A stretch of DNA of 64,000 nucleotides, from contig NZ_JAHKQD010000003.1 in NCBI RefSeq assembly GCF_018860915.1, positions 62,001 through 126,000 of the forward strand, given 5' to 3'. The notes under the pieces are model-generated. The model worked only from the letters and a program-made list of their open reading frames with translations, was not told the DNA's origin and did not search any database. Positions 8,544 to 62,929 of this stretch are shown here, one piece after another (positions within the stretch are counted from its first letter, which is position 1; each line of letters opens with the position of its first letter). Source of the DNA: Colwellia sp. C2M11 (lineage in GTDB: Bacteria > Pseudomonadota > Gammaproteobacteria > Enterobacterales > Alteromonadaceae). Position numbers and translations under genes: made by a program.

Positions 8544-8883
8544 AATATTCTCCAATGGTCTTATTTACATGAATCTAAGTTATATAACTAAAATTAGGTT
8601 AGTGTAACTTGCTATGAAAGCAACCACACCGGACAACAAAAATAATAACCAACCATCCACTATTTATGAAATATATAATTACTATTACCACCATTCACAC
8701 AAAAAATACAACATTCAAATTCTACATCAATAAAATTAAACCAATAAAATACAATGAATTAAAGCTTATTGAATATTAATTTTTATGACTTTTATATGAA
8801 ATAATCACGATTTATTATTGAACAAGACTAAAAATTAGCTTATATTCATTTAAATTATGAATCACGAGAGAGCTATCAAACTG
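8544..8883. other. Divergent promoter region aceA / LysR
   Basis: About 340 very AT-rich bases separate the divergent isocitrate lyase and LysR genes. Divergent placement of a LysR gene often means its operators lie here. I could not pick a convincing T-N11-A site among many candidates, and no gene is visible. Confidence 0.45.
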
Positions 8884-9825
8884 ATGAATATTTCTAAAAT
8901 TGATTTAAACTTACTAATTTATTTAGACGTACTACTTAGAGAAAAGAATGTAACTCGCGCTGCCGGTCAGCTTAATATTACTCAACCTGCAATGAGTAAC
9001 GGCTTAAAAAGGTTAAGAACGCTATTCAATGATCCTATACTAGTACGTACTTCTGATGGAATGTCTCCAACTGAAAGAGCAAGAGCGCTAGCGCCAGCGA
9101 TTAGAAAGATATTACTTGAATTAGAAAAAACGTTACAAGGCGAAGAAGAGTTTAATGAACAGCATAGTACCCGTGTATTTCGTATCATGGCCAGTGACTA
9201 TGCAGCCTCTACTCTATTACCTAAATTGCTAAAGCTTCTTAATAAAGTAGCACCTAATGTCACTATTGATATTATGACACCTAGTGATGTTACCTTTCAC
9301 GATGTTGAAGCAGGTAAAATTGATATGGCAATAAACCGTTTCGATGAACTACCTCAGTCTTTTCATCAAAAGTCGATATGGCGTGATTCCTTCTCTTGCT
9401 TAGTCAGTGCCGAAAACCCAATAGTTAGTAAATTCAACTTAAACTCTTACTTAGCGGCCAAACATGTTTGGGTATCAAAAACAGGTTTTGGTGTTGGGGT
9501 TGGAATGAATCCAAACGACGTACAAAAATTGGGTTGGGTTGATGAATCACTAGCAAGATTGGGTAAAAAGCGTGATATAAAGGTATTCACTCGAAACTAT
9601 CATGTTGCAATGCAACTTGCTTTTGAAGATAACCTGATTGCTACCTTACCAACAAAAGCGGCTATGTTACATAAAAGCGATGCTAATTATATTATTGTTA
9701 AACCGCCGTTTGAAATACCAGATATGGAATTAAAAATGATATGGAGCCCTTTACTTCATCATGATGCAAGCCATGTGTGGTTCAGACATTTAGTCATAGA
9801 AGCCGCAAGATTAGTACAAATGTAA
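8884..9825 (+). CDS. LysR-family transcriptional regulator
   Basis: It is a DNA-binding regulator with an N-terminal winged helix-turn-helix (about residues 5-65: LDVLLREKNVTRAAGQLNIT and the Q-P-A-M-S-N recognition segment) and a C-terminal periplasmic-binding-like effector domain. I prefer the ATG at 8884 (MNISKIDLNLL), which gives the normal LysR N-terminus with GAGAGA upstream; an in-frame ATG at 8857 would add nine residues. It is divergent from isocitrate lyase and 113 bases upstream of an LrgA/LrgB pair on its own strand. It could therefore control the glyoxylate bypass, the LrgAB transporter, or both. The effector is unknown. Confidence 0.9.
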   Translation: MNISKIDLNLLIYLDVLLREKNVTRAAGQLNITQPAMSNGLKRLRTLFNDPILVRTSDGMSPTERARALAPAIRKILLELEKTLQGEEEFNEQHSTRVFRIMASDYAASTLLPKLLKLLNKVAPNVTIDIMTPSDVTFHDVEAGKIDMAINRFDELPQSFHQKSIWRDSFSCLVSAENPIVSKFNLNSYLAAKHVWVSKTGFGVGVGMNPNDVQKLGWVDESLARLGKKRDIKVFTRNYHVAMQLAFEDNLIATLPTKAAMLHKSDANYIIVKPPFEIPDMELKMIWSPLLHHDASHVWFRHLVIEAARLVQM

Positions 9826-9938
9826 CACTAATCTATTAATTAACTTAGAGCTTGCTTATTTAGCCAGCTCTAAGTTAATAATGAACTTAATAATGTTGGA
9901 ATATACTCCCCAGCAGTTTTCTAATTAACTGAGTTAGA

Positions 9939-10313
9939 ATGAAAAATATTATTTATACCATTATAGCTATTAGTATTTGCTTAATATCTGGCAGAATGCT
10001 TTACAGTGTTATTGGCGGTTTACCAGCAAGTTTATATGGTATGGTACTCTATTGCATACTATTACAGTTAGGTTGGTTTAACCCAGATAAAGTTCAGCAA
10101 GCCAATCAGTGGGGAATAAAGCATATGGGTATATGTTTTATTCCTGCAGCTGTTGGGATAATTAATCATTTTGAATTATTTCAAAAACATGGCTACTCGA
10201 TAGTCGCAATAATTCTTGTGACTACCTTTATATTAATAAGCTTCGTTGGTATTTTAGTTGAAAAATATTTAACAACAAAATCAAAACCAGCTGCAGATGT
10301 AAAGGATTATTAA
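9939..10313 (+). CDS. lrgA: CidA/LrgA-family membrane protein
   Basis: This small integral membrane protein of 124 residues has about four hydrophobic segments (roughly 5-25, 30-48, 65-85, 88-108) and the family pattern GGLPASLYGMVLY near residue 28. CidA/LrgA proteins were described as holin-like, but LrgAB relatives are now linked to transport of small acids such as pyruvate and, in plant plastids, glycolate/glycerate. The LrgB partner follows with a one-base gap, so the two are translationally coupled. It lies in a neighbourhood of glyoxylate enzymes, which makes a C2/C3-acid transport role attractive but unproven. Confidence 0.85.
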   Translation: MKNIIYTIIAISICLISGRMLYSVIGGLPASLYGMVLYCILLQLGWFNPDKVQQANQWGIKHMGICFIPAAVGIINHFELFQKHGYSIVAIILVTTFILISFVGILVEKYLTTKSKPAADVKDY

Positions 10314-47862: not shown

Positions 47863-48810
47863 TTAAATGACGGTATCTGGATGTATTGCTTTGATATTAG
47901 AAGCATCCAATTTATATGGGGTAATTTGATAAACATAATAATTAAGCCAATTAGTAAATAATAGACTACCATGACTTCGCCAAGAACCAATAGGAGGATT
48001 ATTTTGGTTATCGTCTTTATAATAATTTTTAGGTATCGCCGTGCCACTATCATTTAAGCTATCACGTAAAAATTCTTCGTGTAAAGTAGAGGTATCATAT
48101 TCAGGATGGCCTGTTAAATAAACTTGTTGCTTATTTTTACTCGCAGCTAAATAAACTCCAGCTTCTTCAGATTCTGCTAAGACTTTTATTTGTGAAATAC
48201 TTTCATAATCTGATTTATCAATGTAGCCATAGCGAGAATGCGGCACATTAAAATTTTCATCAAAGCCACGCGTTAAAGGTTCTTTTTCATCAAGTGCTTT
48301 GTGATTAAAAATTCCCGATAATTTGTTTTTTCTTAAATGGCGATTCAAACCATAGTGATGGTACAGCGCGGCATGTGCAGCCCAACAAGAAAACATTGTT
48401 GAAGTAACATTTTTTTCTGCCCAATCAAAGACTTCACATATTTTATCCCAAAAAGTAACTTGTGAATAATCAAGTAAAGCTAACGGCGCTCCAGTAATAA
48501 TTAAACCATCATATTGTTTATGTTTTACATCATCAAATAAATGGTAAAAGGTATCTAAATGCTCTGTTGGGGTATTTTTCGATTCATTGGCATTAATACG
48601 AATAAACTCTATATTTATTTGTAATGGGGTATTCGACAACATGCGCAGTATTTGCACTTCTGTTTCAATTTTATTTGGCATTAAATTCAAAATAGCGACT
48701 TGCATTGGGCGTATTTCTTGAGAAATGGCCCTATGTTCAGACATAACAAAAATATTTTCTTTATCTAACACTGATAATGCAGGTAATTGATCTGGAATTT
48801 TAATTGGCAT
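47863..48810 (-). CDS. metA: Homoserine O-acyltransferase (MetA family, probably succinyltransferase)
   Basis: It activates homoserine with an acyl-CoA as the first committed step of methionine synthesis. The family start MPIKIPDQLPA is at 48810, with AGGTG upstream; the longer frame to 48837 adds nine unconserved residues. 315 residues. The nucleophile lies in FSCWAAHAALYHHYG, and PHSRYGYI and GHPEYDTSTL are typical. The acyl-specificity position 111, Gly in E. coli (succinyl) and Glu in acetyl-using enzymes, is Ala here (GAPLALLDY). A small residue favours succinyl-CoA, but this is inference. Confidence 0.95.
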   Translation of the reverse strand: MPIKIPDQLPALSVLDKENIFVMSEHRAISQEIRPMQVAILNLMPNKIETEVQILRMLSNTPLQINIEFIRINANESKNTPTEHLDTFYHLFDDVKHKQYDGLIITGAPLALLDYSQVTFWDKICEVFDWAEKNVTSTMFSCWAAHAALYHHYGLNRHLRKNKLSGIFNHKALDEKEPLTRGFDENFNVPHSRYGYIDKSDYESISQIKVLAESEEAGVYLAASKNKQQVYLTGHPEYDTSTLHEEFLRDSLNDSGTAIPKNYYKDDNQNNPPIGSWRSHGSLLFTNWLNYYVYQITPYKLDASNIKAIHPDTVI

Positions 48811-48881
48811 AACGCACCTATGACGAAGAAAAAGCAAACAAAGTATAGAAAAACTATACTTACAATACTACTTAGATTGCT

Positions 48882-48913: not shown

Positions 48914-49519
48914 AAATAGATTAAACCTATATATTATCGTATTGAATTTGTAAAATGTCATTTAAAAAGAGAATACCGCCAAGAGCGAGAATGAAGCTGA
49001 GCAAGCCCTGTGAATCAGCTATGGACTTTAATTATATGTTTATGCGATTTGTAAGTAGTAAATTTTTTTTAATTGTATGCATATTCACAACAACATGACT
49101 TACCATCTTAAAACAATAAATGTATCTTCTTTAGTAAGGGCTTTCTTTGTTTATAAAAATTTACAAATATAAGAGACCAATCGGTCTGATATAAAATAGA
49201 TTTACAAGCATTTATTTTAAGCTTTTGATCAATCCGATATAGGGCTAGATCATGCTAATGAAGCAGGATCGTTTTAGGGTAATCTAATGAGCTACAAGCC
49301 ACGGTTGCATTCTATTGTATGGAAACTCACTTTATTGCATTTAAAAAGTGCATTTGTATTAATTCAAAATATTACCTCTTTTGAGTAGTGATCAATATAA
49401 GATAAATAGCCTCTCACTTTAATGCAAGGGAACTCCCTCTCTTCAATAGACTCTTCCTCTCTTACAAGTTACTCTCTTATTAATTCTGTAAAATTTTGTT
49501 TTAAATCAAGGACAACTTA
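48914..49519. other. Left border of the accessory island, no convincing gene
   Basis: About 600 bases between the metA promoter and the first island gene. I see tiny unconvincing frames (35 codons at 48991-49098; 33 codons at 49287-49388). There is an inverted repeat AGACC-AATC-GGTCT (49174-49187) that looks like a TetR-family operator without an adjacent TetR gene, and a pyrimidine-rich CTCT stretch (49431-49480). It may contain remnants left by insertion of the island. Confidence 0.4.
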
Positions 49520-50602
49520 ATGCAAGAAAATATGGATATGGCATTTGCTTACCCGAAATACCTTGAGGAACTTGTAGAAAGGCTAGTAAAGAGAAACTGG
49601 CTCGTACATAACTTTCCAAAAGTAGATAATACTGATGTATATAATTTCGCTAACTATCGGCAAAACAAGCTCGTCAACAATGTAATTTACACTGTTTACC
49701 TAGATGTAAATATTTATCAGTTTATTATAAATTCGATTAAAAAGAATTCACCTAAAGAAGAGTTTAAAGATGCTATAGCACTAGTTGCATTCTGCCAAAT
49801 TGCAGAAATCGAGCTAGATCCGACATATGCTGTTTATGAAAAATTAAATTATAGTAATGATCAGGCACTCCTTGATGAGTTAACTACCGATCTAGAATTA
49901 TTTCAAAGAATAAACAATACAAGTAATGAGCTTTTAGCTCAGTATTCACTAGGATTCATTGAAAAATTCACGCCCTCTGAGGGGCACAATGTTGAGCATG
50001 AGAAAGTCCAGAAAGGGCTAACTAAGTATCGTAGATTGATTGAATGGGACTCGATGTATTTAATGATTCTTTACATCACAAATACATCCCTAATAGATGC
50101 TCTTAATAAAAAGTCCAAGCTGAAGAAACTAATAGAATGGATGATAAAAGAGTTTAGACTTTCATTGGTAGTAATCGTGTTCGCGATTATATATTTTGGT
50201 GATAAGCCACTTAGAAGGATGATGAAGGTTAAGCTAAACGATTCACCTGAAAGAAAATTGAAAAGCTTGTTTAATATGACTTGGGATCTTTATACCCTAA
50301 ATAGGTATTTCAGAATGTGGACAGAAAGAGAACCGCAACAAGAAGGTATATATGCCAGCAATGACAAGGTATTCAACGAGATTTTACGTGGTTCAATTGA
50401 TGTGCAAAATTCGGAAGAACTCACTCACTTTGAAGGTCACATAGACAAAAAGGACATTCAATTTATTTCTGAGATGACAATGAACCAGAATCATAGCCAC
50501 GAAAGAATGTATGATTCTGAAGAATGGTCGCATGAATATAGAGCAAGACTGATTAAAAAACACGAAAAATTATTAGGTGTTGATAGTAAAGCTACATCAT
50601 AA
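49520..50602 (+). CDS. Uncharacterised protein, possibly PIN-like nuclease
   Basis: I do not recognise this 360-residue protein with certainty. It opens with helices, then a strand ending in Asp (VYLDVNIYQFI; Asp62, Asn64), a helical segment with conserved-looking FCQIAEIELDPTYAVYE (91-107), an acidic EWDSMYLMILYI (175-186) and a hydrophobic stretch ending YFGDKP (Asp228). An early Asp-x-Asn after a hydrophobic strand plus later acidic residues is how PIN-domain RNases look, so a PIN-like fold is my guess. The hydrophobic run 214-226 could instead be a membrane segment. A DUF2971 gene follows after 16 bases. Confidence 0.6.
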   Translation: MQENMDMAFAYPKYLEELVERLVKRNWLVHNFPKVDNTDVYNFANYRQNKLVNNVIYTVYLDVNIYQFIINSIKKNSPKEEFKDAIALVAFCQIAEIELDPTYAVYEKLNYSNDQALLDELTTDLELFQRINNTSNELLAQYSLGFIEKFTPSEGHNVEHEKVQKGLTKYRRLIEWDSMYLMILYITNTSLIDALNKKSKLKKLIEWMIKEFRLSLVVIVFAIIYFGDKPLRRMMKVKLNDSPERKLKSLFNMTWDLYTLNRYFRMWTEREPQQEGIYASNDKVFNEILRGSIDVQNSEELTHFEGHIDKKDIQFISEMTMNQNHSHERMYDSEEWSHEYRARLIKKHEKLLGVDSKATS

Positions 50603-50618
50603 TTTATAAGGATTTAGA

Positions 50619-51197
50619 GTGATTTTATACAAATATAGAAATTTGGAAAATTTGAGATTTTTAATAGACATATTTATGAATCAGAGGCTTTATGCAGCTC
50701 ATTACACTGAAATGAACGATCCTATGGAAGGACATTATTTTCATCGGTCCGGCAGTTTAAATCCAGAATTTAAGTCAGCATTGAAGGGTGAGAAGTCAAG
50801 TTATGGAATTTGTTCTCTTTCAGAAATCGCTAATAATGACTTAATGTGGGCGCATTATGCTGGAGGTCATACTGGGATTTGTATTGGAGTTGAAGTCTGC
50901 CCAAATAAATATGAAATAGAAAAGGTAATGTATGACGGATTAAGCGCTTTAACAAATAAGCTCGAAAATGAGCCTGCGGAAGCAGCCAAAAGGGTTCTGT
51001 CACATAAGCTTGAAATATGGGATTATGAAGAGGAACACAGGGTATTTGTTCAATATTCAAAATTTGTAGAATTAGAAATAAAAGAGGTCATATTTGGCCG
51101 TAGAGCTAAAGATAAAGACTTTTATAAAAAACTAATCTTAGCATTTTGCCCTAATGTCATATTTAAAGAAGAGTTAGAACTAGAGCGTAAGTTTTAA
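50619..51197 (+). CDS. DUF2971 family protein
   Basis: DUF2971 proteins are small cytoplasmic proteins of unknown function, frequent in accessory and defence regions. The 192 residues start at GTG 50619, with AAGGAT upstream. They contain the family pattern: LYKYRNLENLRFL at the N-terminus, YAAHYTEMNDPMEGHY (the NDP motif), ICSLSEIANNDLMWAHYAGG, GICIGVEV and the acidic EEEHRVF near residue 145. It lies 16 bases after the preceding gene, so the two form an operon. The pairing hints at a joint role, perhaps nuclease with partner, but nothing proves it. Confidence 0.82.
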   Translation: MILYKYRNLENLRFLIDIFMNQRLYAAHYTEMNDPMEGHYFHRSGSLNPEFKSALKGEKSSYGICSLSEIANNDLMWAHYAGGHTGICIGVEVCPNKYEIEKVMYDGLSALTNKLENEPAEAAKRVLSHKLEIWDYEEEHRVFVQYSKFVELEIKEVIFGRRAKDKDFYKKLILAFCPNVIFKEELELERKF

Positions 51198-51278
51198 TTT
51201 CTTTGATTGGTCAAGCGATTCATGATTGCGTTTTAAATATTGTGTTCTGATAGATAATGAGACGAATCTCAATAATTA

Positions 51279-51348
51279 GTTGTAGTTTAAACCTGAACTG
51301 ACACCCTAAAAACGGGTAACTGTCAGATCAAGTCTGAGCCACTACAAC
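51279..51348. repeat. Imperfect inverted repeat / hairpin element beside an island gene
   Basis: The element is bounded by GTTGTAGT (51279-51286) and ACTACAAC (51341-51348), with inner pairs CTGACA/TGTCAG and CCC/GGG around an A-rich loop. The reverse complement of 51279-51302 matches 52558-52581 at 19 of 24 bases (GTCAGTTCA-N8-CTACAAC). The element ends exactly at the stop codon of the minus-strand gene 51349-52458. Confidence 0.6.
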
Positions 51349-52458
51349 TTAAAAGCCTATTGGAACTATGCTTTCTACCCCAAACGCTTTTCCCAATAAC
51401 ACCTGGTTTTGATTAATATTATTAATATGCTCACCTAAATTTGAAAAAACTTGAAATTGTTTATGGGCTTTCTTGTATTGATGATAATCAATTGCTTGTT
51501 TGATAAAAGTTTTTAAACCACCTGTCTCAACAGATACAAGAGAACTAGATATGTCTGTTGATGTGATTTTTCTTCTAAGCAAGTTAGGCTTCTTAAACTC
51601 TCCAGCAGTTAGCGCTTCCCAAGCTCTATTCCAATCTGCAACAATTTCTTCTTGCTCACCAATATTTTTGGATATTTGCACTTTATTTGTAAATTTATGG
51701 CGTAACGTTCTAAACTCTTTAAACTCCTCCCGCATATCAGCAAGCTTTCCAACCATATCCTCACTTGATTTACATCGGCTCAATAGCAATGACATAAAAG
51801 GTGGAATATATTTAATTTCAGATATAAAAGGAGTAGATATAGATTCTGATAATCTTACAAACCTTTGGTTATGCTGGGTCGCATAATCAAAGTAGTTTTT
51901 TAAAACAGCATCCCTTTTATCTTTCTTTTGTAGAGCAAATTCAGAAACAGAGTTTAACGAAAGTGGCAACATATTCACACTGTCTGTTAGTTCTGCCATC
52001 TCGTTAGTATAGCACCAATGCCACATTCTAAGTTGAGTTAAGAAGTTTGACTCCAACAATTCCTTACTAGTTTGATCTGTCTCAGCACTTTTAATAATAT
52101 CTAAGCCAATACCTGGATCGTGTTGTATTTGCCAAATCTTATTTTCTTTTGATAACTCTTCAAAAGCCAAAGCGTGTAGATCTGCATCTATAGAAATATG
52201 ATCCGTCATATCTGTAGAGTGAAATAATTCTTCCTTATCAATAAATCGAATAGTTCCTGAGTGTCTTCGATTTAACTCCTTTACGATTCGATTTTTTTTG
52301 TAATTTTCGGACAAAACCACTTCATCAAATAAGATTACTGAAGAAATAAAAGTCTCTACTCTAGAGACTAACTCTACAGATAGCTTTTTATAGAGTTTGC
52401 TTGATAGACAATCAAATGCGTCTATACTCCAATTTGATAATACTGCTGAGTTGTTCAT
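51349..52458 (-). CDS. Uncharacterised island protein
   Basis: I do not recognise this 369-residue protein. It appears cytoplasmic, mostly helical and charged, without signal peptide, membrane segment or nucleotide-binding motif. Notable segments are SSVILFDEVVLSENYKKN (about 40-57), HALAFEELSKENKIWQIQHD, YIPPFMSLLLSRCKSSEDM near 215 and a charged EEFKEFRTLRHKF region. The hydrophobic strand VILFDEV followed by acidic sites is compatible with a nuclease or sensor, but this is weak. It stands alone, flanked on both sides by copies of a repeat (51279-51348 and 52558-52581), as if it were a separate insertion. Confidence 0.65.
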   Translation of the reverse strand: MNNSAVLSNWSIDAFDCLSSKLYKKLSVELVSRVETFISSVILFDEVVLSENYKKNRIVKELNRRHSGTIRFIDKEELFHSTDMTDHISIDADLHALAFEELSKENKIWQIQHDPGIGLDIIKSAETDQTSKELLESNFLTQLRMWHWCYTNEMAELTDSVNMLPLSLNSVSEFALQKKDKRDAVLKNYFDYATQHNQRFVRLSESISTPFISEIKYIPPFMSLLLSRCKSSEDMVGKLADMREEFKEFRTLRHKFTNKVQISKNIGEQEEIVADWNRAWEALTAGEFKKPNLLRRKITSTDISSSLVSVETGGLKTFIKQAIDYHQYKKAHKQFQVFSNLGEHINNINQNQVLLGKAFGVESIVPIGF

Positions 52459-52557
52459 TTAATTTCCCTATATTTAATTTATTTTAATATTTATTACTCG
52501 GAAGTAATGTGCTTATTACTTCTGGTTAGATTTGGTGAAGCTCTGATATTTAAAAGC

Positions 52558-52581
52558 GTCAGTTCAACATTGAGCTACAAC
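52558..52581. repeat. Second copy of the island repeat end
   Basis: GTCAGTTCA-N8-CTACAAC, identical in fixed blocks and spacing to the reverse complement of 51279-51302, and similar to 51322-51348 on the same strand. It sits three bases from the stop codon of the AlbA_2-like gene. Confidence 0.55.
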
Positions 52582-52584
52582 AAG

Positions 52585-53748
52585 TTAAATACGTTCACCG
52601 TAATTAACCCAATAAGCCCATTCTGAAAAAAGCCTTTCAGATGTGTGACGATTAATTGTTTTATTTTTGGTCATCGCGTCAGAAATCATTTCATCATTCT
52701 CTTTAATAAATGAATCAAAATCATTTTTTAGTTTTTTGCATACGTGCGTTAATGATTGCTCTGAATCCAAAATTAAGAATGGTAAGTGAATAATTGGTGG
52801 CTTTATTTGACTTTCAATAGGAGTAGAGAAAGACCTTTCGTTAGGTGTTTCAATTTCCAATGCTCTTATATGTTTGAATAGGCTATATTCTACAGTACCT
52901 TTTGTATAATAAAATAAGTCACAATAGCAATTGGTAATACAACCATCATCTTTTTCTGGGTATGTTAAGAACTCAATACTTGGAAAGGGAATACATAAAT
53001 TCTCACTGTTAAAGCGTATTACTGGTATTTTGTGCAACTCTACTTTTTTGTATTTTAGGTGATAATAATACTTACTAGGTTTTTCAAATAAAATTTCTTG
53101 CCACCAAAATTTTCCACCTGATGATTCACCATCTCCAATCTCGATAGTATAATCTGGATCTATGTCGTAAAAAGCTCCGTTTATTCCGTCATATTTCCAG
53201 TTTTCAAAATCTAGCAATAAATCTACAAACCGTTCAGAAGCTTTTTTATCTAATCCAAATTGTTCACGCCACATAGCTTCAATTTCATACGGGTTGGCAC
53301 TACTATCCTTTGGCGTATTAGTATCTTCCACTCTAGAATAAACAGTTCCAGAGCGAACACATCTGCCTTTTTTATTTTCATCACGCGTTAAAAAATATGG
53401 CTTAAACCTTTCATTTTTTATCACAAGAATATCTAACTCTAAGGCTTTAACTTTAATGGTCTTAAGCTCTATTGTTGGTATATTATTTTTGGCAAAACTT
53501 TTTGTCTGAAGGTAACTAATGATATCTGCTTGTGTTGGGCGATACACGCTCCCCGCTAAACCAATAACCTCACAATTATCATTTACACCAAAAATTAAGT
53601 AACGATCACTATCACAAAGCACGTTAGCCATGCATAAAATATCATGGAGAAGATCTACTAGATTAGAATGATGTTGCTGTTTAAAATCCCACCACTGTCC
53701 TTCTCTATTTTCCGACAGCAGTTGTTCAATGAGTTCTTTCATTTTCAT
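52585..53748 (-). CDS. AlbA_2/Schlafen-like domain protein
   Basis: The N-terminal part (about 1-140) resembles the AlbA_2 (Schlafen-type, divergent AAA_4) domain: REGQWWDFKQQHH, then LLHDILCMANVLCDSDRYLIFGVND and the GLAGS segment, with VRSGTVYSRVEDTNTP further on. Proteins with this domain include transcription regulators and nucleases and are common in defence regions. The C-terminal 240 residues are unfamiliar. 387 residues. It is the last gene of the five-gene minus-strand operon, 33 bases after the 90-residue gene, so it probably belongs to the same system. Confidence 0.72.
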   Translation of the reverse strand: MKMKELIEQLLSENREGQWWDFKQQHHSNLVDLLHDILCMANVLCDSDRYLIFGVNDNCEVIGLAGSVYRPTQADIISYLQTKSFAKNNIPTIELKTIKVKALELDILVIKNERFKPYFLTRDENKKGRCVRSGTVYSRVEDTNTPKDSSANPYEIEAMWREQFGLDKKASERFVDLLLDFENWKYDGINGAFYDIDPDYTIEIGDGESSGGKFWWQEILFEKPSKYYYHLKYKKVELHKIPVIRFNSENLCIPFPSIEFLTYPEKDDGCITNCYCDLFYYTKGTVEYSLFKHIRALEIETPNERSFSTPIESQIKPPIIHLPFLILDSEQSLTHVCKKLKNDFDSFIKENDEMISDAMTKNKTINRHTSERLFSEWAYWVNYGERI

Positions 53749-53781
53749 CCATATATCTATGAGCTTTATGATTACAATTAA

Positions 53782-54054
53782 TTATTTTGTTTCATCTTCA
53801 GATGAAGATTCAACATTTATCATGTCATGAAAATTGTTCATCATATTTGCTTGAAGTCTGGCACTTTCGTTAATGGTTAAAAGATCAATTCTCCCGTTTG
53901 GAAGCATTTTTACTTTGTTTAAACTATCCATCACATGTGATGTACCCTGCATAAAGTGCATTTTCCCTTGATACCCTTGTTCTTTAAGTAAGTTGAAATT
54001 ACGCTCAAATTCCAATCTATTTCTAGGTGTCTTCATGTCTGTCATTTTACTCAT
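53782..54054 (-). CDS. 90-residue protein between the STAND and AlbA_2-like genes
   Basis: I do not recognise a domain. It is a soluble, Met- and Asn-rich protein starting MSKMTDMKTPRNRLEF, with a middle GKMHFMQGTSHVMDSL and a basic/hydrophobic LPNGRIDLLTINESARL (about 51-67), ending in a Ser/Glu-rich tail. The ribosome site AGGAAG five bases before the ATG is strong, and the gene begins nine bases after the 1934-residue gene. Its place right after an MBL and trypsin-STAND pair recalls the small third component (Avs1C) that I remember in AVAST type I loci. Homology to that component is not established here. Confidence 0.65.
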   Translation of the reverse strand: MSKMTDMKTPRNRLEFERNFNLLKEQGYQGKMHFMQGTSHVMDSLNKVKMLPNGRIDLLTINESARLQANMMNNFHDMINVESSSEDETK

Positions 54055-54063
54055 TTCTACTTC

Positions 54064-57000
54064 CTAATTAATCATCGATACTTCTAGGGTTTTACGGTTA
54101 ATGAAAAATTGTGTCGTAAAATTGTATTCTACACGCCAAAATATTTCCCAACCTTTTTGAGATAATAGATCCAATTTTTCACTTGTCATCATCAATCGAT
54201 TCCCCTCTCGAATAGGTCTTCCCAATTGTTCTGAATCCCAACTACGTCCTTCAATCCAATGACTCTCACTAATGTCATTAAGTTTGACTTTACCTGCAAA
54301 ACCTTGAACTCCCAAGTTAATAAATGAAGGTGTTACTCTTCCTCCTGTATAATTAATTCCTGGAGCACAATTAAACAAGAAACATTCATTTTTTCTTTTG
54401 TTAAGCTCATGAATATCTTTAACAAAAGGGTGTTGATTAGCTTGAAACTCTGAAGGTTCAAGACTAACTTTTGAATTACTTAAGAGAACTGATATTTCAA
54501 TCATCTTAGGGCTACTATCATGAGGCACAACCACTTCAAAATAATGTAAGTATTCATTATCACCCTCCTTAAGGAAATCCATGGGGTTTTGTGAAGAACT
54601 AGAAAGAAACTTAATTATTTTTTCATTTAAGCCATTCTGACTATAACTCTGTATGCTTTCATCTGGAAAATTGGGGTTAAACTGCCTTAATGCAGAGATA
54701 ACAGAATTAATATTTTCTTCTGTAACTCTATGTTGAATAATCTGATTTATTATGGGCATTAACTGGTCATTTATAAATTTTCTATTTTTTCCTAAGTTAT
54801 ACCCTTTATGAATTTTGTCATTGATTCTGACGATTTCATCGAACCCTAAGCATGGAGAGTTTTGAACCAATAGCTTACTTAGCGAAATAAGATCTGAATC
54901 CTTCCATACTCCAATTTTTGTTAATCTAGATAAGATATAAGTTAGTGAATCACCTAAGCTGCTAATATCTATTTCGTTTTCAATTTTCCCATTTATATCT
55001 ACTGGTTTACTATTAAAAATTGCGTTATCTAGTGATACATCCTCTTCCAACAAAGAACTATCAAGATTGTTAATACATGCGACTATAAGAGACCACGTAT
55101 GCTTTATGACTAAATGTTTACAGCTCTCAATTCTGCTAAATAATGACTGTATATTTACATGAGATTTGATTTGGCTAACATCTTCTATCGCTAATGAGTA
55201 GATTATTCCAACTGCAATCTCAGGTGATAGTGCTTGTATACCTGTTAATGAGTGCTCAGCTAAAATAGGTAGATAAATATCTGGTTCAAACCTCGAAATA
55301 GATTTAATTATGCTAGGTGCTCTCGAATATATGGCTGGAGATGGGTGATCGATGAAATTAAGTAAAAAGCCCATTAATTCTTGATCATTAAAGATAGTTT
55401 TTGAATTTTCAAAGTCCATCCACTCAAAATCCTCAACAATATGGTTTGGTGGGGATACCATAATTTTTATATGTTCAATAATACTCTCATGTAACTGTTC
55501 AACCTTTTCAGGAGACAATACATTGCTAAACTTTGAAATTAATTTATCTACTATTAACCAGTCAGTTGCATGTGGTTCATCGATAATAAGAGGCGTTAAT
55601 ATTTCTAATAATTCATTTTCATCGCATAATTTAGATAGCTCTGCAAATGCTTGATCATTTTGACCAAGGTTTCTCGACCAAACACCCCACCCTGAATCCT
55701 GTATCGCTCTTAAAGATAATAGTAATTCTTGCTTACTTGTTTTTTCGTCCTCGATATCTGAAGCTTCTTTGGCAAGCCCATAGTGAATATCAAACTCTTT
55801 TAACCCTTGGGATGTTCCAAAAGTTCCTGGTAGGTAAATTGAATTACCAATGTCATCTTCTCCCCTGTCAACGAGAGTCACATCTTCATGTTCAACTTCT
55901 GTAGGAGTAGATTCAGGTATTGTTGGAACTTCCACATCAATTTTGTTCTTATGGATCTGTATTATCAACTCATCAAAATGACGCTGTTCAAGATGCTTAT
56001 TAAGCCCACTAATAAATTGATTTCTTATAGCGAACTCCATATCAGAAATCAAAATTCGAATAATTCTATTCATGTAGAAATTTGATTGTATTGTGTTGCT
56101 ATTATTAATAGTGTTGGCAAAAATTTCAGAGAAGCGACTGATATACCTATCATCTCCAATAAGGAATAGTTCACTAATAGCCCATTGCAAGCTAAGTTGT
56201 ATGCCCTTTGTATTTTCTAATATGTTTAATATTCCACTTTGTTCATCAATTTTTCTTACTCCAGTATCGTAACTTGCTCCTTTATATAAACTATCAATTT
56301 GATTTGATTCAGCCCTATGCAAAATTAATTTAGGCTCAAGAGGAATGGTCTCATTTTGAAAGTATTTTATAGCTGTAGATAACTTTCCTGATGAACATAA
56401 AGAACCAATGAATTCTTCCTTTTCCATCCGTATATAACGCTGGAAAGTCATTTCACCTGCGGCAAAGTCTAAAATAGGAGCCAGTTCTTTTGGAGACCAT
56501 GAAGCGTTATGGCGCTTAAGCATACTTAAAGAAGAATTAATTAATCCTAACTGATCTTCTTTATACCATGATGGCCCCATCGAAGAATTTAGTAACTCTT
56601 GAAAACATCCGTCAGCGCGACTACTACCTAATGCTCTATAATGCGTAGCTAATAAGACTAATTCTTGACATCTATCCCAACGATTTTGAATACCTAATAA
56701 AACGTGGTCTTCAAGTTTCTTTAGTAACTGGAATATATGTTTTTTGTGCTCTATTTGGGGGAGCAAGTTCTTTGCTATTGTGTGAATAGTTTCTCTAAAA
56801 CCTTCAGAATATACACCTAACTGTTTATCTGAATGTTCATAGATAAAATCTAAATACTTACTTAAATTTTGTTTTGAATATAAAGAGAAAAATTCTAAGA
56901 TAGAATTATAAATAAAAGGAAGAGCCTCCTCTACTAACATGTATGAACGTTCAAATTGTGAACGTGTTAGTAAGTCAAACTTAAGAATAGGTAAAACCTT

Positions 57001-59868
57001 TTCTAACATGTCTACAGACAATTGTTCTGATTCTTGGGAAGTAACTTTTAGTTTCCAAGCGGAACCTAAAAGGTAACCAATATAAGAAACAATACTTTCT
57101 AACGACTTTTCCCATTCTGTTTCGGTGAATAATTCCAAATCAGGGGGCGAGTAATGTTCATCTAAAAAACCTTTATATTTAGAGTTTGATAGTACACTGC
57201 CAAGCCAGTTATGATTTAGGTCAACTCCATTACTTTCTCTAAAATCAGGTATTTCCTTAAAAGTAGCCCCACTAATTAACCCTTCCAATATGTCATATTT
57301 GATTGATACCCCATCCAATAACCTTACAATCATGGGAGAATCTTCTTCATCTGGTTTATATTTTGTTAAACCGTATTCTATATCTTTAACAATATCACCA
57401 AGATCCACTTGGATTCCTGAAATATCAGAGAAATGATCTACATGGTTATACGCCTGTATTAGAGTCATGGTAATAGAATTATCAATAGGTATTTCTCTTC
57501 TTTCCAACTCTTCTATTGGCGTATAAATATTATGATGAAGTAATAACAAGGCAGTATTATGTCCCAGAATATAAAGGAGTATTTTATGCTTCTGCTCTTG
57601 TTCTTCCTCACTTCCTTCTGATGAGCTAGTTAAAAATTTATGAAGTAATTGTATTACCTTTAAAGAACTTTTAGTTGGTGTGCTTGACAACAAACAATTA
57701 TTTATAGAAGCTGATGTAAAGAAATTTAGCATATCCTCATATGCAATTGAGCCTTTTTCATATTCGCTCATGAAATAACTATGTATAGCCGAATGAATAA
57801 ATTCAGCTTCTTCAAAGTTATTTTCCATAATTAGTTTGTACTGAATATAAATAAGGTCTTCTGTTGAAACTAACGGCATAGATTCACGGAATAAATGATG
57901 AAGTGCTTCTTTAGGCTTTTTCAAAGCAATTAAGTATTCAGCTAACTCCATTGCATTCAAGGCAAATACATTGTTATATCGAAACTTGATCCGTTGTGAA
58001 AGTAAAAGCAATTTAGTCACAGATATAAAACAGCCTGTTTGCAAATAAAAAGAAAGTGCATCTTTTAGGTCTGCAAGAATCAAACCTGGCTCAACAAAGT
58101 TGTGCGAGCAATTATCGGCCCAGTCTTGATTACAAAAATCTATGGTTTCGTTTCTGATTTCAATTGTTGCTCTCAAAAGGTGATGAAGTATATTCCTTTG
58201 AGAATAGGAGATATCAATATGTTTTTTACAAAAAAGGGATATTTGTGATTGAAAATCTTCTTCAAGAGCCTTTGTTTTCTTATTTACAAAGGTTATAAGT
58301 GAAGCATGATATGCAAAGATGTTTTCTTTATTTGTTAAAAAATGACTAATTAAATCAAGGTTTTTATCTAAAGATATTCTCATACTCGCTGGAACCGTTT
58401 CAATAAGCGATTTATGTGATATGCATTCCCTAAAACGGGTGATTAATGATATTAGATAAAGCAATTCGTCTTTCTTTACAATATCTTGCCAGAGGCTTTC
58501 ATAATAGACCTCAATCTCACCGCTAACTTGAGGTAACCTATCCAGCCATTTATTGATTTCTTGTTCTCCATCGACTGGCATATTGGTTCTAACGTACTCA
58601 ATTAAATATCGAAGATAGAGTGGATGGTATTCTGAGCATTTCCCCATTTTATTACGAAGTTCAAATGCTAGTTCAGGTAGTTCTTTATTGATAAGTCTTA
58701 AGCATGTATTTACAGGTAATGGAGTTACTAATATTATTTTTTTATCATCTTGAATTATATGCTTAGGAGGAAGGCTGCTTTCATTTTGACCGACAATTAC
58801 GAAAATAATATTTTTAGGTAAAGTAACTGGTAAAGCAGAAAAAAACTCTTCTATTTTATTTGATTTGAAAAGCTCATCTATGCCATCAACAAAAATAACG
58901 CATTTAGTTTGTTTTGCCGCATATTTTTCTGACAACTTTTGTAATAAATCTAATATTGTTGTAATCCATTGATTAATATCTCTCTCTGATTTCTGCGGGA
59001 TAGCGTTATACAAATCCGCAACAACTCTATCCTCTAACCATTCTAAGAACTTTAAGTGATTCATTCTTAACGAAAGAAGGTTTTCCTTACCTTTTTCAAG
59101 CAGAAAATACTTTCCAAGAACTACAATGTCACTTTTAGCATAACCTACCGACTCAACAATAGTCGTTTTACCAGACCCAGGATGCCCCTTGAGAAAGAGG
59201 TAACCTGAATCTAAAGAGGTGATCTTATTTGTTAACTTATCTACAACAGGGGTATTTAATTCAAAACCACTCTCATCTCCCAAACTTTCTTCTTGAGATT
59301 CATATGTAATATAATTTTTATCTAGTAACGTAGCTATTTTGCATACACTTATAGCGCCTAACGTACCATCTAGTTCTTTTGTAATTACACCAATGGTTGT
59401 ATCACTAACCATCAAAGGGGCACCCGATAGACCCTCTATGCATTCATTACTCTGGTTATATTCCAAATCTAACTCATAATTCGATCTTTCAATATTCACA
59501 TTCGATCTAGCAACTATTCCATCCAGTTTAGCGCCTGCATTCAATTTTCCTCCAGGAAAACCAAAAGTACTCCAGGTAGAATTATTTCTAATGACTTGAT
59601 TGGATAGTTTTAAAAAGTACTCTATATCTAACGGTTGTATTAACTCTAAAATGGCTATATCAAGGCTTTCATCGAAGTCCTTTAATCTGACTTCTAATGG
59701 CTCACTAGATATTTCATCTAGCTCAACGAAAATTACAGTAGTATTTTCTTCTACATTTTCGACTGTATGATATGCTGTCAAAAGCTCTTTGTTTGAAACA
59801 AGAAAAGCTGTACCTACATCGTCATTACAATAAATTCTACCTACATACTTTTCTAAATAATTTTGCAC
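54064..59868 (-). CDS. Trypsin-like protease fused to STAND/AAA NTPase and helical repeats (Avs-like)
   Basis: This is the core of the island, 1934 residues. Residues about 1-185 are a trypsin-like serine protease with an intact triad: His34 (LLTAYHTVENV), Asp70 (DESLDIAILEL) and Ser148 (EGLSGAPL). Residues about 205-480 are a STAND-type NTPase: Walker A GHPGSGKTT (228-236), Walker B VIFVDGIDE (324-332), and a sensor-like NIIFVIVGQNE. The rest to about 1700 is helical, TPR-like sensor-style sequence; the last 200 residues look more beta-rich (RVTPSFINLGVQGFAGKV). The start is GTG at 59868 with AAAGGA upstream, five bases after the MBL gene. Such fusions act as antiviral NTPase sensors; the trigger here is unknown. 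Confidence 0.85.
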   Translation of the reverse strand: MQNYLEKYVGRIYCNDDVGTAFLVSNKELLTAYHTVENVEENTTVIFVELDEISSEPLEVRLKDFDESLDIAILELIQPLDIEYFLKLSNQVIRNNSTWSTFGFPGGKLNAGAKLDGIVARSNVNIERSNYELDLEYNQSNECIEGLSGAPLMVSDTTIGVITKELDGTLGAISVCKIATLLDKNYITYESQEESLGDESGFELNTPVVDKLTNKITSLDSGYLFLKGHPGSGKTTIVESVGYAKSDIVVLGKYFLLEKGKENLLSLRMNHLKFLEWLEDRVVADLYNAIPQKSERDINQWITTILDLLQKLSEKYAAKQTKCVIFVDGIDELFKSNKIEEFFSALPVTLPKNIIFVIVGQNESSLPPKHIIQDDKKIILVTPLPVNTCLRLINKELPELAFELRNKMGKCSEYHPLYLRYLIEYVRTNMPVDGEQEINKWLDRLPQVSGEIEVYYESLWQDIVKKDELLYLISLITRFRECISHKSLIETVPASMRISLDKNLDLISHFLTNKENIFAYHASLITFVNKKTKALEEDFQSQISLFCKKHIDISYSQRNILHHLLRATIEIRNETIDFCNQDWADNCSHNFVEPGLILADLKDALSFYLQTGCFISVTKLLLLSQRIKFRYNNVFALNAMELAEYLIALKKPKEALHHLFRESMPLVSTEDLIYIQYKLIMENNFEEAEFIHSAIHSYFMSEYEKGSIAYEDMLNFFTSASINNCLLSSTPTKSSLKVIQLLHKFLTSSSEGSEEEQEQKHKILLYILGHNTALLLLHHNIYTPIEELERREIPIDNSITMTLIQAYNHVDHFSDISGIQVDLGDIVKDIEYGLTKYKPDEEDSPMIVRLLDGVSIKYDILEGLISGATFKEIPDFRESNGVDLNHNWLGSVLSNSKYKGFLDEHYSPPDLELFTETEWEKSLESIVSYIGYLLGSAWKLKVTSQESEQLSVDMLEKVLPILKFDLLTRSQFERSYMLVEEALPFIYNSILEFFSLYSKQNLSKYLDFIYEHSDKQLGVYSEGFRETIHTIAKNLLPQIEHKKHIFQLLKKLEDHVLLGIQNRWDRCQELVLLATHYRALGSSRADGCFQELLNSSMGPSWYKEDQLGLINSSLSMLKRHNASWSPKELAPILDFAAGEMTFQRYIRMEKEEFIGSLCSSGKLSTAIKYFQNETIPLEPKLILHRAESNQIDSLYKGASYDTGVRKIDEQSGILNILENTKGIQLSLQWAISELFLIGDDRYISRFSEIFANTINNSNTIQSNFYMNRIIRILISDMEFAIRNQFISGLNKHLEQRHFDELIIQIHKNKIDVEVPTIPESTPTEVEHEDVTLVDRGEDDIGNSIYLPGTFGTSQGLKEFDIHYGLAKEASDIEDEKTSKQELLLSLRAIQDSGWGVWSRNLGQNDQAFAELSKLCDENELLEILTPLIIDEPHATDWLIVDKLISKFSNVLSPEKVEQLHESIIEHIKIMVSPPNHIVEDFEWMDFENSKTIFNDQELMGFLLNFIDHPSPAIYSRAPSIIKSISRFEPDIYLPILAEHSLTGIQALSPEIAVGIIYSLAIEDVSQIKSHVNIQSLFSRIESCKHLVIKHTWSLIVACINNLDSSLLEEDVSLDNAIFNSKPVDINGKIENEIDISSLGDSLTYILSRLTKIGVWKDSDLISLSKLLVQNSPCLGFDEIVRINDKIHKGYNLGKNRKFINDQLMPIINQIIQHRVTEENINSVISALRQFNPNFPDESIQSYSQNGLNEKIIKFLSSSSQNPMDFLKEGDNEYLHYFEVVVPHDSSPKMIEISVLLSNSKVSLEPSEFQANQHPFVKDIHELNKRKNECFLFNCAPGINYTGGRVTPSFINLGVQGFAGKVKLNDISESHWIEGRSWDSEQLGRPIREGNRLMMTSEKLDLLSQKGWEIFWRVEYNFTTQFFINRKTLEVSMIN

Positions 59869-59873
59869 TTTAA

Positions 59874-61097
59874 TTAGTCCTTTATAAAAGTAAATGCTTC
59901 GTCTGCACCTGAAATATACACGCTGTAATTGTATGTTTCTTTTAATTTTTCGTTATCAAAATAATTAGATGTATCCGTTTCATAATTGAAAATCACCTTT
60001 CGATTAACACTTGTTTTTCGGCCTACAATTCTAGCAATAGTAGCTAAATCAGGGTGGCCAAACTTATAGCTGTTAGTTGAAATAAAGTATGTATCTGAAT
60101 CTATAAGGCTTAATAAGCTCGGACTGGTATTTTTATGTGAGCCATGGTGAGCTACTTTAATTGCATCAAACCATAATTGTTCTTGTTGATATTTATTTTT
60201 TAACGCTCGTTCTATTATTGATGGGTGTGAATCCCCCAAAAAAAGAAGTTTTTTATTTCCATACTCCAAGACAAACGAAATTGAACTACCGTTTGTAGGG
60301 CTATCATCTTCTTCAAAAACCTCAGCCATCAACTTTTCTATATTGATTCCTTTACTAGATATATTTTTGTTTATGTTCTTTTTTATCGGTTTTTCATGAG
60401 AAACTAAAAACTCAAATGCATCATCGAAAAATTGATTATCCAGTGCAGAACTACTAACTCCTAGCTTCCTTAACTCCTTTTTCCAGAATATCATTAGCTT
60501 TTGCAGTTTAGGTTTATCTGGAGAAAGAAGAATTAATTTCACATTTTTTGAAAGCTCTATATCTGTACCATTCTCGACACAAACTGCGTCATGGTTGAAT
60601 TGTGCATTCCAGTCATAACCACCTTTAAAAATAAGAGAAGCTAAAGATGAACCTTGTTTACCACTGATATCTTTATTGTGGTTTTGAACAATGGTTTCAT
60701 CATTTTTATATCCATTAATATTTATTTGCTGGAGTATCCTTTGATCCTTTAACGACAGTTTGTTTTCATTAGTGGGACTATTTTGAATATGTCGGTAACT
60801 ATTGTGCCAAATGTTTTTAATATTAATTTTTTTAGATAATTCATTAGCTTCTAACAAGGACAATGACCCCGATATATGATCTGAATCTATATGAGTAACA
60901 ATTAAAAAATCTAAAGATTTATTCTTTGTCTTGAGTTCAGTTAATTTTGATTTGATATGATCTTCATAAGTACCTTTAAACCCTGTATCGATCAAAATAT
61001 CTAAGCTATCTTCTTCTACTGAAACCCAAAAGCTGTCACCATAGGACGCAGGAAACATAGTAATGCTTAAGCTATTAACTTTAGGAATGTTTGTCAT
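59874..61097 (-). CDS. Metallo-beta-lactamase-fold protein (ComEC/Rec2-type)
   Basis: This 407-residue hydrolase of the MBL fold has no signal peptide or membrane segment. The metal site is complete: THIDSDHISG (His69, Asp71, Asp73, His74), later LLFLGDSHP (bridging Asp) and KVAHHGSHKN (His pair). The C-terminal TNSYKFGHPDLATIA resembles the C-terminal MBL domain of ComEC/Rec2. Such proteins cleave nucleic acids or other phosphoesters. It has GGTGA before its ATG and is coupled to the trypsin-STAND gene (five-base gap). In AVAST type I systems an MBL protein is paired with a protease-STAND protein, as I recall. Confidence 0.85.
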   Translation of the reverse strand: MTNIPKVNSLSITMFPASYGDSFWVSVEEDSLDILIDTGFKGTYEDHIKSKLTELKTKNKSLDFLIVTHIDSDHISGSLSLLEANELSKKINIKNIWHNSYRHIQNSPTNENKLSLKDQRILQQININGYKNDETIVQNHNKDISGKQGSSLASLIFKGGYDWNAQFNHDAVCVENGTDIELSKNVKLILLSPDKPKLQKLMIFWKKELRKLGVSSSALDNQFFDDAFEFLVSHEKPIKKNINKNISSKGINIEKLMAEVFEEDDSPTNGSSISFVLEYGNKKLLFLGDSHPSIIERALKNKYQQEQLWFDAIKVAHHGSHKNTSPSLLSLIDSDTYFISTNSYKFGHPDLATIARIVGRKTSVNRKVIFNYETDTSNYFDNEKLKETYNYSVYISGADEAFTFIKD

Positions 61098-61130
61098 TTA
61101 TTCACCATTGGAACATATGGATTGTCTAGT

Positions 61131-61721
61131 TTAAAACGAATCAGGGTATAGCTTACGCTGCATATTATCTCTTGATTTAGTTAATAATTTTTTACAGCTT
61201 TCAAAAACACTTAAAACAGTATCCCAATACTTATCATCAAGTATTTGCTCTTTTTGATTGCCCGAATAGTATTTCAGGCTACAGCCCTTTTCAGTATCAT
61301 GCTGGACTTTGCCATGTGCAAAAGCGTTGCGCCAATTCATGATAGTATTTAATTGTTTAGTTAATTGCTCTTTCTCACTTCCCTTGATGAACCTCTTTGA
61401 GTTAAGAATTTTAATGAACAAAGACTTCTTACTTGAAAAAGACATAATTGTTGATTTTAAAAGTTCATTTTCAAATAAATGCCTACGTGCATCAGGTTCA
61501 TTGAATGGCCCCATAAAATAAGTCATAAGAAAGCTTTCTAACTCTTGCTCAATAGATGTTGTAGCATAAAGAATTTTACCGCCATTGTTTCTGGCAACAC
61601 GCATACTCTCTTGTATTTCAGTATTTATGATAAAGCCTATATCTTTATCAATTATCCCTTCTTTCGTAAATTGGATAGTCGCTGATACTGTCTGGGTTAT
61701 AGGTAATTCAATCTCTTTCAT
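61131..61721 (-). CDS. HEPN-like protein with RX4H motif
   Basis: This small helical protein of 196 residues contains NWRNAFAHGK, with Arg131 and His136 in the RX4H arrangement of HEPN ribonucleases. An upstream helix (ATTSIEQELESFLMTYF, about 53-69) resembles the first helix of HEPN domains. N-terminal residues 1-35 look beta-rich (ETHV-free, QTVSATIQFT). HEPN proteins are RNase toxins or effectors in many defence systems, although some HEPN-like folds only mediate assembly. It is the first gene of the five-gene operon, 33 bases before the MBL gene. A weak ribosome site precedes the ATG. Confidence 0.7.
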   Translation of the reverse strand: MKEIELPITQTVSATIQFTKEGIIDKDIGFIINTEIQESMRVARNNGGKILYATTSIEQELESFLMTYFMGPFNEPDARRHLFENELLKSTIMSFSSKKSLFIKILNSKRFIKGSEKEQLTKQLNTIMNWRNAFAHGKVQHDTEKGCSLKYYSGNQKEQILDDKYWDTVLSVFESCKKLLTKSRDNMQRKLYPDSF

Positions 61722-61812
61722 AATGTGTCTTAATTTACGTTATTTTCTCTTTTCTTACCTTGAACCCAAGTAACTGACCTATTAATACTGTCTATATACA
61801 ATTATATTAAAT

Positions 61813-61845
61813 AAAAAAAACCTTTGCTAAAGTAGCAAAGGTTTT
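61813..61845 (-). terminator. Intrinsic terminator of recA
   Basis: On the minus strand CCTTTGCTA-CTT-TAGCAAAGG (61841-61821) is followed by eight T residues (61820-61813), about 45 bases after the recA stop. It marks the right border between recA and the accessory operon. Confidence 0.92.
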
Positions 61846-61888: not shown

Positions 61889-62929
61889 TTACTCTTCTAC
61901 TATGTCTAAGCCTTCCGGTTCAACTTTCTTGGCATCAATATTCTTACTCAGAAATAGCTCTCTTAATTTAGCATCAACATCTTTCGCCATTTCTGGGTTT
62001 TCTTCAAGATACTTAGCGGCGTTTGCTTTACCTTGTCCAATACGCTCACCATTACAGCTATACCAAGCGCCAGCCTTTTCAACAAAACCGTTTTTAACAC
62101 CTAAATCAATTAATTCACCTAAGCTGTTAATACCTAAACCATACAGTATTTGGAATTCAGCTTGTTTAAAAGGTGGAGCAATTTTATTTTTTACAACTTT
62201 GACACGCGTTTCATTACCAATAATTTCATCACCATTTTTAACCGCACCAATACGGCGTATATCTAATCGAACCGAGGCATAAAATTTAAGTGCATTACCA
62301 CCAGTAGTTGTTTCAGGGCTACCGAACATAACACCAATTTTCATACGAATTTGGTTAATGAAGATAAGCATAGTATTAGATTTTTTCAAATTACCCGTTA
62401 ACTTACGCATAGCTTGCGATAACATACGCGCTTGTAATCCCATATGTGAATCACCCATGTCACCTTCAATCTCAGCTTTAGGTGTAAGAGCAGCTACAGA
62501 GTCAACTACAATAACGTCGATAGCACCAGAGCGAGTTAACATATCAACAATTTCAAGTGCTTGCTCACCGGTATCAGGTTGTGAAATAAGTAATTCATCA
62601 ATGTTAACACCAAGCTTCTCAGCATAAATAGGGTCAAGTGCATGCTCAGCATCAATAAAAGCACAAACTTTATTATTACGCTGCGCTTCAGCAATAACCT
62701 CTAAAGTTAATGTTGTTTTACCACTTGATTCTGGACCATAAACTTCAACAACTCTTCCCATAGGTAAACCACCGGCGCCTAGGGCAATATCTAGACCTAA
62801 CGAACCAGTTGAAATAGTTTCTACATCCATTGTAGTATTGTCGCCAAGCTTCATTATTGAACCTTTACCAAATTGTCTTTCGATTTGGCCTAGGGCTGCT
62901 GCTAATGCTTTTTCTTTATCGTCTTTCAT
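61889..62929 (-). CDS. recA: Recombinase RecA
   Basis: RecA is the homologous-recombination ATPase and co-protease for LexA. The 346 residues match family length. Walker [10 protein letters not shown] is at about 64-72, then [26 protein letters not shown] (Walker B region), loop 2 [20 protein letters not shown] and the acidic C-terminal tail ([10 protein letters not shown]). A LexA box lies 52 bases upstream of the start. It is divergent from mutS. It is not involved in the accessory operon downstream, separated by its terminator. Confidence 0.99.

Follow-up and report, generated by a model that had tools for sequence, protein, structure and literature searches.

Several bacterial anti-phage systems, namely Hachiman HamMAB, protease-Lamassu, DRT, canu and Avs1, pair a nuclease of the metallo-beta-lactamase (MBL) fold with a partner protease (Science 2025, PMC12799240). 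According to the main text of that work, the protease is trypsin-like in these systems and a caspase in canu, and there is proof of activation by cleavage for Hachiman and Avs1 and supporting evidence for canu, whereas for protease-Lamassu and DRT it is a proposal. The MBL enzyme is described there as a pro-nuclease with two inserted loops, and the trypsin-like partner as cutting behind isoleucines. The closest described case is EpiAvs of Erwinia piriflorinigrans, which responds to the phage terminase and for which cleavage of Avs1a on activation has been shown; the cut-site mutants reported for EpiAvs1a are I134K and I234K (PMC12799240). Here we analyse a related locus of Colwellia sp. C2M11, located in a 64,000-nucleotide stretch (positions 62,001 to 126,000) of contig NZ_JAHKQD010000003.1, hereafter the window, to which all coordinates refer unless a locus is named.

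The list of open reading frames (ORFs) and a count of the gaps confirmed that the locus consists of five genes on the minus strand, separated by 33, 5, 9 and 33 bases. In order of reading, they are a gene for a 196-amino-acid HEPN-like protein, probably with an RNase-type toxin domain (61131-61721), avs1a (59874-61097; 407 aa), avs1b (54064-59868; 1934 aa, GTG start), avs1c (53782-54054; 90 aa) and a gene for a 387-aa AlbA_2 (Schlafen-type) protein (52585-53748). By sequence, the three central genes belong to a divergent clade of AVAST type I (Avs1abc) systems. We consider it highly probable that they form an anti-phage system acting by the known Avs1 mechanism and that the HEPN and AlbA_2 genes are neighbours outside this core, not conserved parts of it.

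The avs1abc core and its catalytic residues

All three core proteins were recognized by PADLOC, as Avs1a (350 bits), Avs1b (971.9 bits over residues 9-1919) and Avs1c (82.4 bits, encoded directly behind avs1b), and two of the three also exceeded the NCBIfam cut-offs, Avs1a with 457.7 bits (cut-off 420) and Avs1c with 93.7 bits (cut-off 70). The combination of an MBL protein, a protease-STAND protein and a small ORF, for which the initial annotation had suggested AVAST type I, is thus recovered by dedicated models. The 407-aa protein also matched Pfam Lactamase_B (53.3 bits), and its profile retrieved ComEC-type competence proteins among six matches in the PDB. The 1934-aa protein combines a trypsin-like protease (Pfam Trypsin_2, 36.8 bits, cut-off 27.6), a STAND NTPase (NPHP3_N, 31.3 bits, cut-off 24.8) and a long C-terminal region; no Pfam repeat family matched it at E<=0.1. 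Searched against solved structures, the Avs1b profile matched HtrA- and trypsin-type proteases at the N-terminus. The gene order avs1a-avs1b-avs1c was identical in four annotated plasmid loci. Across the genome of the window and 60 related genomes, the Avs1b family search returned one full-length match, that of the window itself; some match at E<=0.001 was present in 41 of these 61 genomes, all but the one in the window being partial and mostly confined to the trypsin stretch.

To the possibility that the trypsin-STAND protein belongs to a different protease system of the Lamassu, Hachiman or DRT type we assign only a minimal probability. Its trypsin part does match the LmuA (63.9 bits) and RT-protease (45.5 bits) models, and the MBL protein likewise matches RTasMBL (158.1 bits) and a model that also bears the name LmuA (314.9 bits). 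However, the matches of the large protein cover approximately residues 2-185, whereas the Avs1b model (972 bits) spans nearly all of it; the MBL protein scores higher as Avs1a, avs1c follows, and none of the nine proteins scanned with PADLOC matched a Hachiman, LmuB or reverse-transcriptase core gene. We rejected a Lamassu, Hachiman or DRT label for the 1934-aa protein, as such matches are confined to its trypsin part. With Hachiman, protease-Lamassu, DRT and canu, the locus has in common the MBL nuclease with its partner protease, and its similarity to their models is limited to these two parts; the sensors differ.

To examine the residues expected for Avs1, we aligned Avs1b proteins (55 sequences kept, including that of the window, after leaving out 16 of 71 shorter than 1700 aa) and MBL proteins (66 of 67 kept, including that of the window, after leaving out one of 480 aa, from locus L052). 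The trypsin-like domain (residues 19-153; 59410-59814) carries the triad H34, D70 and S148 in 55/55 Avs1b sequences. Equally invariant were G228, G231, G233 and K234 of Walker A (residues 228-236; 59161-59187) and D328 of Walker B (residues 324-332; 58873-58899); the protease triad and NTPase motifs lie where the initial annotation had placed them. In Avs1a, the metal site formed by His69, Asp71, Asp73, His74, Asp289, His317 and His318 was conserved in 66/66 sequences.

The alignment also located the equivalents of the two cut sites. The cut site Ile134 of EpiAvs1a corresponds to Ile144 in the window (codon 60666-60668), and its Ile234 to Ile246 (codon 60360-60362). Counted along the longest ORF of the Erwinia locus, these isoleucines are I143 and I243; they become 134 and 234 if, as we infer, avs1a starts there at a TTG at codon 10. 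The first position is Ile in 62 of the 66 MBL proteins and the second is Ile in 44 and Val in 14, so the second gate site appears less strictly isoleucine than the first. Avs1a of the window is probably a gated MBL pro-nuclease.

Clade and proposed mechanism

In a FastTree phylogeny of the 55 Avs1b sequences, the protein of the window grouped with those of two Pseudoalteromonas (L021, L023) and one Thalassomonas (L022) loci, to which it is 93, 87 and 84% identical, respectively. This group adjoins Bacillota sequences and lies apart from a clade of 26 sequences that holds 21 from named Pseudomonadota, including Erwinia; identity to four Bacillota sequences (one of them from a plasmid) is 34%. 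The program warned of long branches; we take the close marine group as sure and the deeper placement near Bacillota as likely. The locus reveals, among marine gammaproteobacteria, a divergent clade of Avs1 that the tree puts nearer to Bacillota systems than to the experimentally tested Erwinia system, and that has kept the cut sites of the pro-nuclease. With EpiAvs as described in PMC12799240, it shares the gene order, both gate isoleucines, the trypsin triad, the STAND NTPase and avs1c, and differs from it in the clade of its Avs1b, the score of this protein below the NCBIfam cut-off, and the flanking HEPN and AlbA_2 genes.

By analogy with the Erwinia system, in which the large terminase subunit is the trigger, the long C-terminal part of Avs1b most likely binds a phage protein; the STAND NTPase would then assemble and the fused trypsin-like domain become active. 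Cleavage of the gating loops of Avs1a behind Ile144, Ile246 or both would release its DNase activity, which would destroy DNA and stop the infection. Avs1c is a conserved small partner. Sensing, proteolysis and DNA cleavage are predicted here from the work on Erwinia Avs1, and an antiphage function of the locus is likewise a prediction. The trigger may differ in the clade of the window.

The HEPN and AlbA_2 genes

The initial annotation had considered the HEPN and AlbA_2 genes as parts of a five-gene variant in which the sensor controls more than one effector. We compared their distribution with that of the core in 71 other Avs1 loci, 67 of them from genomes of the GTDB and four from plasmids. 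Because the genome loci were identified with two exact peptide patterns, which hit 79 stretches of which 67 were confirmed, diverged Avs1 systems are under-sampled. By tblastn (E<=0.01), the HEPN gene of the window was present in none of the 71 loci and the AlbA_2 gene in one, the P. aurantia 208 locus (L021) with the 93% identical Avs1b. In this sample, the HEPN gene therefore never accompanies another avs1b, and the AlbA_2 gene almost never does.

The immediate neighbours of the core could be examined in 65 of the 71 loci on each side. A same-strand ORF lies within 150 bases before avs1a in 28/65 loci and behind avs1c in 23/65, both counts being inflated by short ORFs, and the families of these front and rear neighbours differ between loci. 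Of the same-strand neighbours within 200 bases, we scanned those of at least 90 aa, which left 25 of the 34 genes upstream and 18 of the 23 downstream, and added the corresponding gene of the window on each side. Among the resulting 26 upstream genes, no Pfam family occurred in more than three, a statement covering 25 of the 31 families found, with a single-member HEPN family possible among the other six. SLFN_AlbA_2 was found in two of the 19 downstream genes (those of the window and L021), and a HEPN/RES N-terminal domain in one. When 46 neighbour proteins were clustered, the AlbA_2 protein of the window joined that of L021 only. Literature searches, as far as titles and abstract openings of openly licensed papers go, brought up none that names HEPN or AlbA_2 genes as Avs1 parts; the words HEPN, Schlafen and Avs1c are absent from the main text of PMC12799240.

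Comparison with the closest relatives points to exchange at the front of the core. The window aligns with L021 at 95% identity over 52584-61119 and with L023 at 89% over 53782-61119, and both alignments break off at 61119, in the interval that separates the end of the HEPN gene from the start codon of avs1a. In L021, the gene before avs1a encodes a zinc-ribbon NERD protein of 259 aa. The NERD gene of L023 is broken into pieces in several frames, and L022 has no match to the NERD gene and no HEPN gene either; in locus L034, a partial match to the zinc-ribbon end alone lies downstream. Both L022 and L023 lack HEPN as well as AlbA_2. In L021, the AlbA_2 gene is accompanied by an unrelated, divergently oriented pair (49520-51197 in the window, where the alignment at 49340-51181 reaches 96%), so the shared unit is a block of the island, not an Avs1-AlbA_2 pair. 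Overall, the P. aurantia 208 locus resembles that of the window in its Avs1b, its AlbA_2 gene (95% identity) and the divergent pair encoding 360-aa and PDC-S31 proteins, and differs in the NERD nuclease gene replacing HEPN, the missing 369-aa gene (see below) and nearby Tn7-like genes.

The assignment of the HEPN protein is weaker than those of the other proteins. It matched Pfam HEPN_RiboL-PSP with 24.5 bits, below the cut-off of 28.4, and its motif RNAFAH (residues 131-136; 61314-61331) fits the RNxxxH pattern that is invariant in the four aligned sequences, its own and those of three homologues (alignment A7). We discarded a single-sequence structure model as evidence because of its low mean predicted local distance difference test score of 41; a PDB search with this poor model gave 279 matches at E<=10 and none at E<=0.001. 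The gene occurs in two of 197 related genomes, that of the window included. A class-wide search of 369 genomes retrieved the copy of the window only, phage records gave no match, and none of the 34 viral-contig stretches fitting its pattern was confirmed. The three homologues (L017, L018, L130; two of four matching plasmid records plus the one genome homologue, L130 being short on one side) are 34-39% identical, and the flanks retrieved with them contain no Avs1 gene. One of them stands 77 bases behind the Thoeris genes ThsB and ThsA-macro on a Vibrio pectenicida plasmid (L017:7593-9561) and is possibly a roaming accessory RNase gene.

The 387-aa protein matched Pfam SLFN_AlbA_2 (40.6 bits) and, over residues 2-358, the PADLOC family PDC-S50 (287.9 bits), the name of a candidate family only; it had no match among PDB sequences. 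The gene was found in three of the 197 related genomes, including that of the window, and in the window's own genome alone in the 369-genome search; three stretches of viral contigs fitted its pattern and none was confirmed. Outside L021, the five homologues examined (L014, L015, L016, L131 and L132, with 43-60% identity; three of 24 matching plasmid records and both genome homologues, L015 being short on one side) do not stand beside Avs1, no Avs1 gene being present in the fetched flanks. Since homologues of both genes occur without Avs1, and one HEPN gene lies behind Thoeris, the two appear in several settings. Because of this distribution, HEPN and AlbA_2 look like separate defence-type passenger genes, located in one island with the Avs1 core and possibly transcribed together with it.

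Several observations weigh against a three-gene Avs1 system of the known kind. First, at full length Avs1b reaches 940 bits with the NCBIfam model, below the curated cut-off of 1500, which is a naming threshold; two plasmid proteins encoded between annotated avs1a and avs1c are likewise recorded only as 'serine protease'. Second, 47 of the 54 other Avs1b sequences are at most 27% identical to that of the window. These two points are the reason why the trigger and other details may differ from those of Erwinia. Third, HEPN and AlbA_2 each lie on the same strand 33 bases from the core, no terminator-like site was detected in either gap (HEPN/avs1a and avs1c/AlbA_2), and this arrangement fits one transcript, making co-transcription with the core plausible. 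Fourth, AlbA_2 has been retained beside the core in L021. Fifth, in the Alteromonas plasmid L014, a stand-alone gene with trypsin-like motifs (8097-8852) precedes the AlbA_2 homologue (9001-10158) by 148 bases. Finally, some Avs1 loci, mostly of Bacteroidota, have recurrent neighbours in common, so lasting Avs1 partners are possible in principle.

The L014 gene was not matched by the Avs1b trypsin-domain profile, nor by Pfam at E<=0.01; PADLOC gave a weak LmuA match (32.5 bits), and its distant matches include annotated trypsin-like peptidases. This arrangement could hint at a link between AlbA_2 and proteases, although one case among the five AlbA_2 loci without Avs1 (L015 being supplemented by L133) is too few. 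Together with the spacing and the AlbA_2 gene of L021, it would favour a five-gene variant in which a HEPN RNase and AlbA_2 are also under the control of the Avs1b protease, or of the entire operon, for a joint attack on DNA and RNA. The same reading would draw on the NERD nuclease genes, one of them broken, that hold the front position in two relatives, and on PADLOC listing MBL and HEPN proteins as DRT-associated parts, with the HEPN protein of the window matching RTasHEPN at only 15 bits. Nevertheless, we regard such a variant as improbable: the two genes are nearly or entirely missing from the other Avs1 loci, L022 and L023 do without either, the AlbA_2 gene of L021 travels with an unrelated pair, and neither protein contains an Ile-small-small-Lys/Arg site, a weak test as the second Erwinia site also misfits. 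Judged by its close spacing alone, the locus would pass for a five-gene system; relatives show that only the three core genes are fixed.

It is similarly doubtful that the core serves as a platform with exchangeable flanking effectors (HEPN or NERD at the front, AlbA_2 at the rear), at least one of which is switched on as a second substrate of Avs1b. If it did, one sensor would release several nucleases, and with the flanking enzymes under protease control, proteolytic activation of immune nucleases would extend to new enzyme classes. We give about even chances to a layered defence, in which HEPN and AlbA_2 act independently as defence or toxin genes, each responding to a trigger of its own, and are co-expressed with Avs1 but have no direct contact with it. 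The match of AlbA_2 to the PDC-S50 candidate family (288 bits) and the HEPN homologue next to ThsB/ThsA speak for it, whereas two of the three close Avs1 relatives manage with neither gene. The sole difference between a layered defence and the passenger reading that we favour is that expression together with Avs1 would be under selection.

As to the recurrent neighbours, a gene of 262-263 aa lies directly behind avs1c in four Bacteroidota loci (L059, L075, L077 and L078; 82-96% identity), and it is possible that it represents a lasting Avs1 partner in that group. A 203-aa gene is a common neighbour in two loci of this mostly Bacteroidota set, and an ATPase-type gene, which we infer to be of the AAA_14/DUF4143 family, precedes the core in three, with 96% identity between two of the copies and 28% for the remaining one. 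We also observed two or three tandem avs1c-like genes in 29 of 31 Bacteroidota Avs1 loci by profile and in 25 of 31 by tblastn (e.g., L025-L028, L030 and L033), and in none of 27 loci from Pseudomonadota genomes with a name. The avs1c of L043 escaped the profile and was found by tblastn; L047, in which the contig ends just behind the avs1b match, has no avs1c by either method.

The genomic island

The five genes belong to an island of 12.9 kb (48930-61813) between metA (47863-48837; Pfam HTS) and recA (61889-62929; Pfam), and this stretch lies directly behind the recA terminator. A sister genome (G011) lacks the island but aligns with the sequences flanking it, at 83% and 90% identity. Since the two alignments end about 28 bases apart (positions 4360 and 4388 of L122), the island was either inserted between recA and metA or lost by the sister. 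metA adjoins recA without the island in three of the eight relatives whose recA surroundings were compared (L122, L126 and L127); in the other five, the part shared with the window there is confined to recA, or to recA plus the mutS side. No integrase was found by Pfam among the eight island genes, no tRNA gene within the window, and, at the ends of the island, no convincing terminal repeats by which a mobile element could be named. Promoter-like sites were uninformative, because 51 were found as compared with 61.8 expected from shuffled sequences. The copy of this block in L021 has TnsA-, TniB- and TniQ-like genes nearby (L021:1-19160), which suggests that the Avs1 block of P. aurantia may be cargo of a Tn7-like element.

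Three further genes complete the island. Between AlbA_2 and the divergent pair, a 369-aa gene on the minus strand (51349-52458) has no match in Pfam, PADLOC or NCBIfam and is missing from the P. aurantia copy, the alignment with L021 skipping it. The pair itself, on the plus strand and common to L021, consists of a 360-aa gene (49520-50602), with no family match above cut-off, and a DUF2971-type gene (50619-51197; DUF2971 23.6 bits in Pfam, PDC-S31 209.8 bits in PADLOC), and is a candidate two-gene defence unit.

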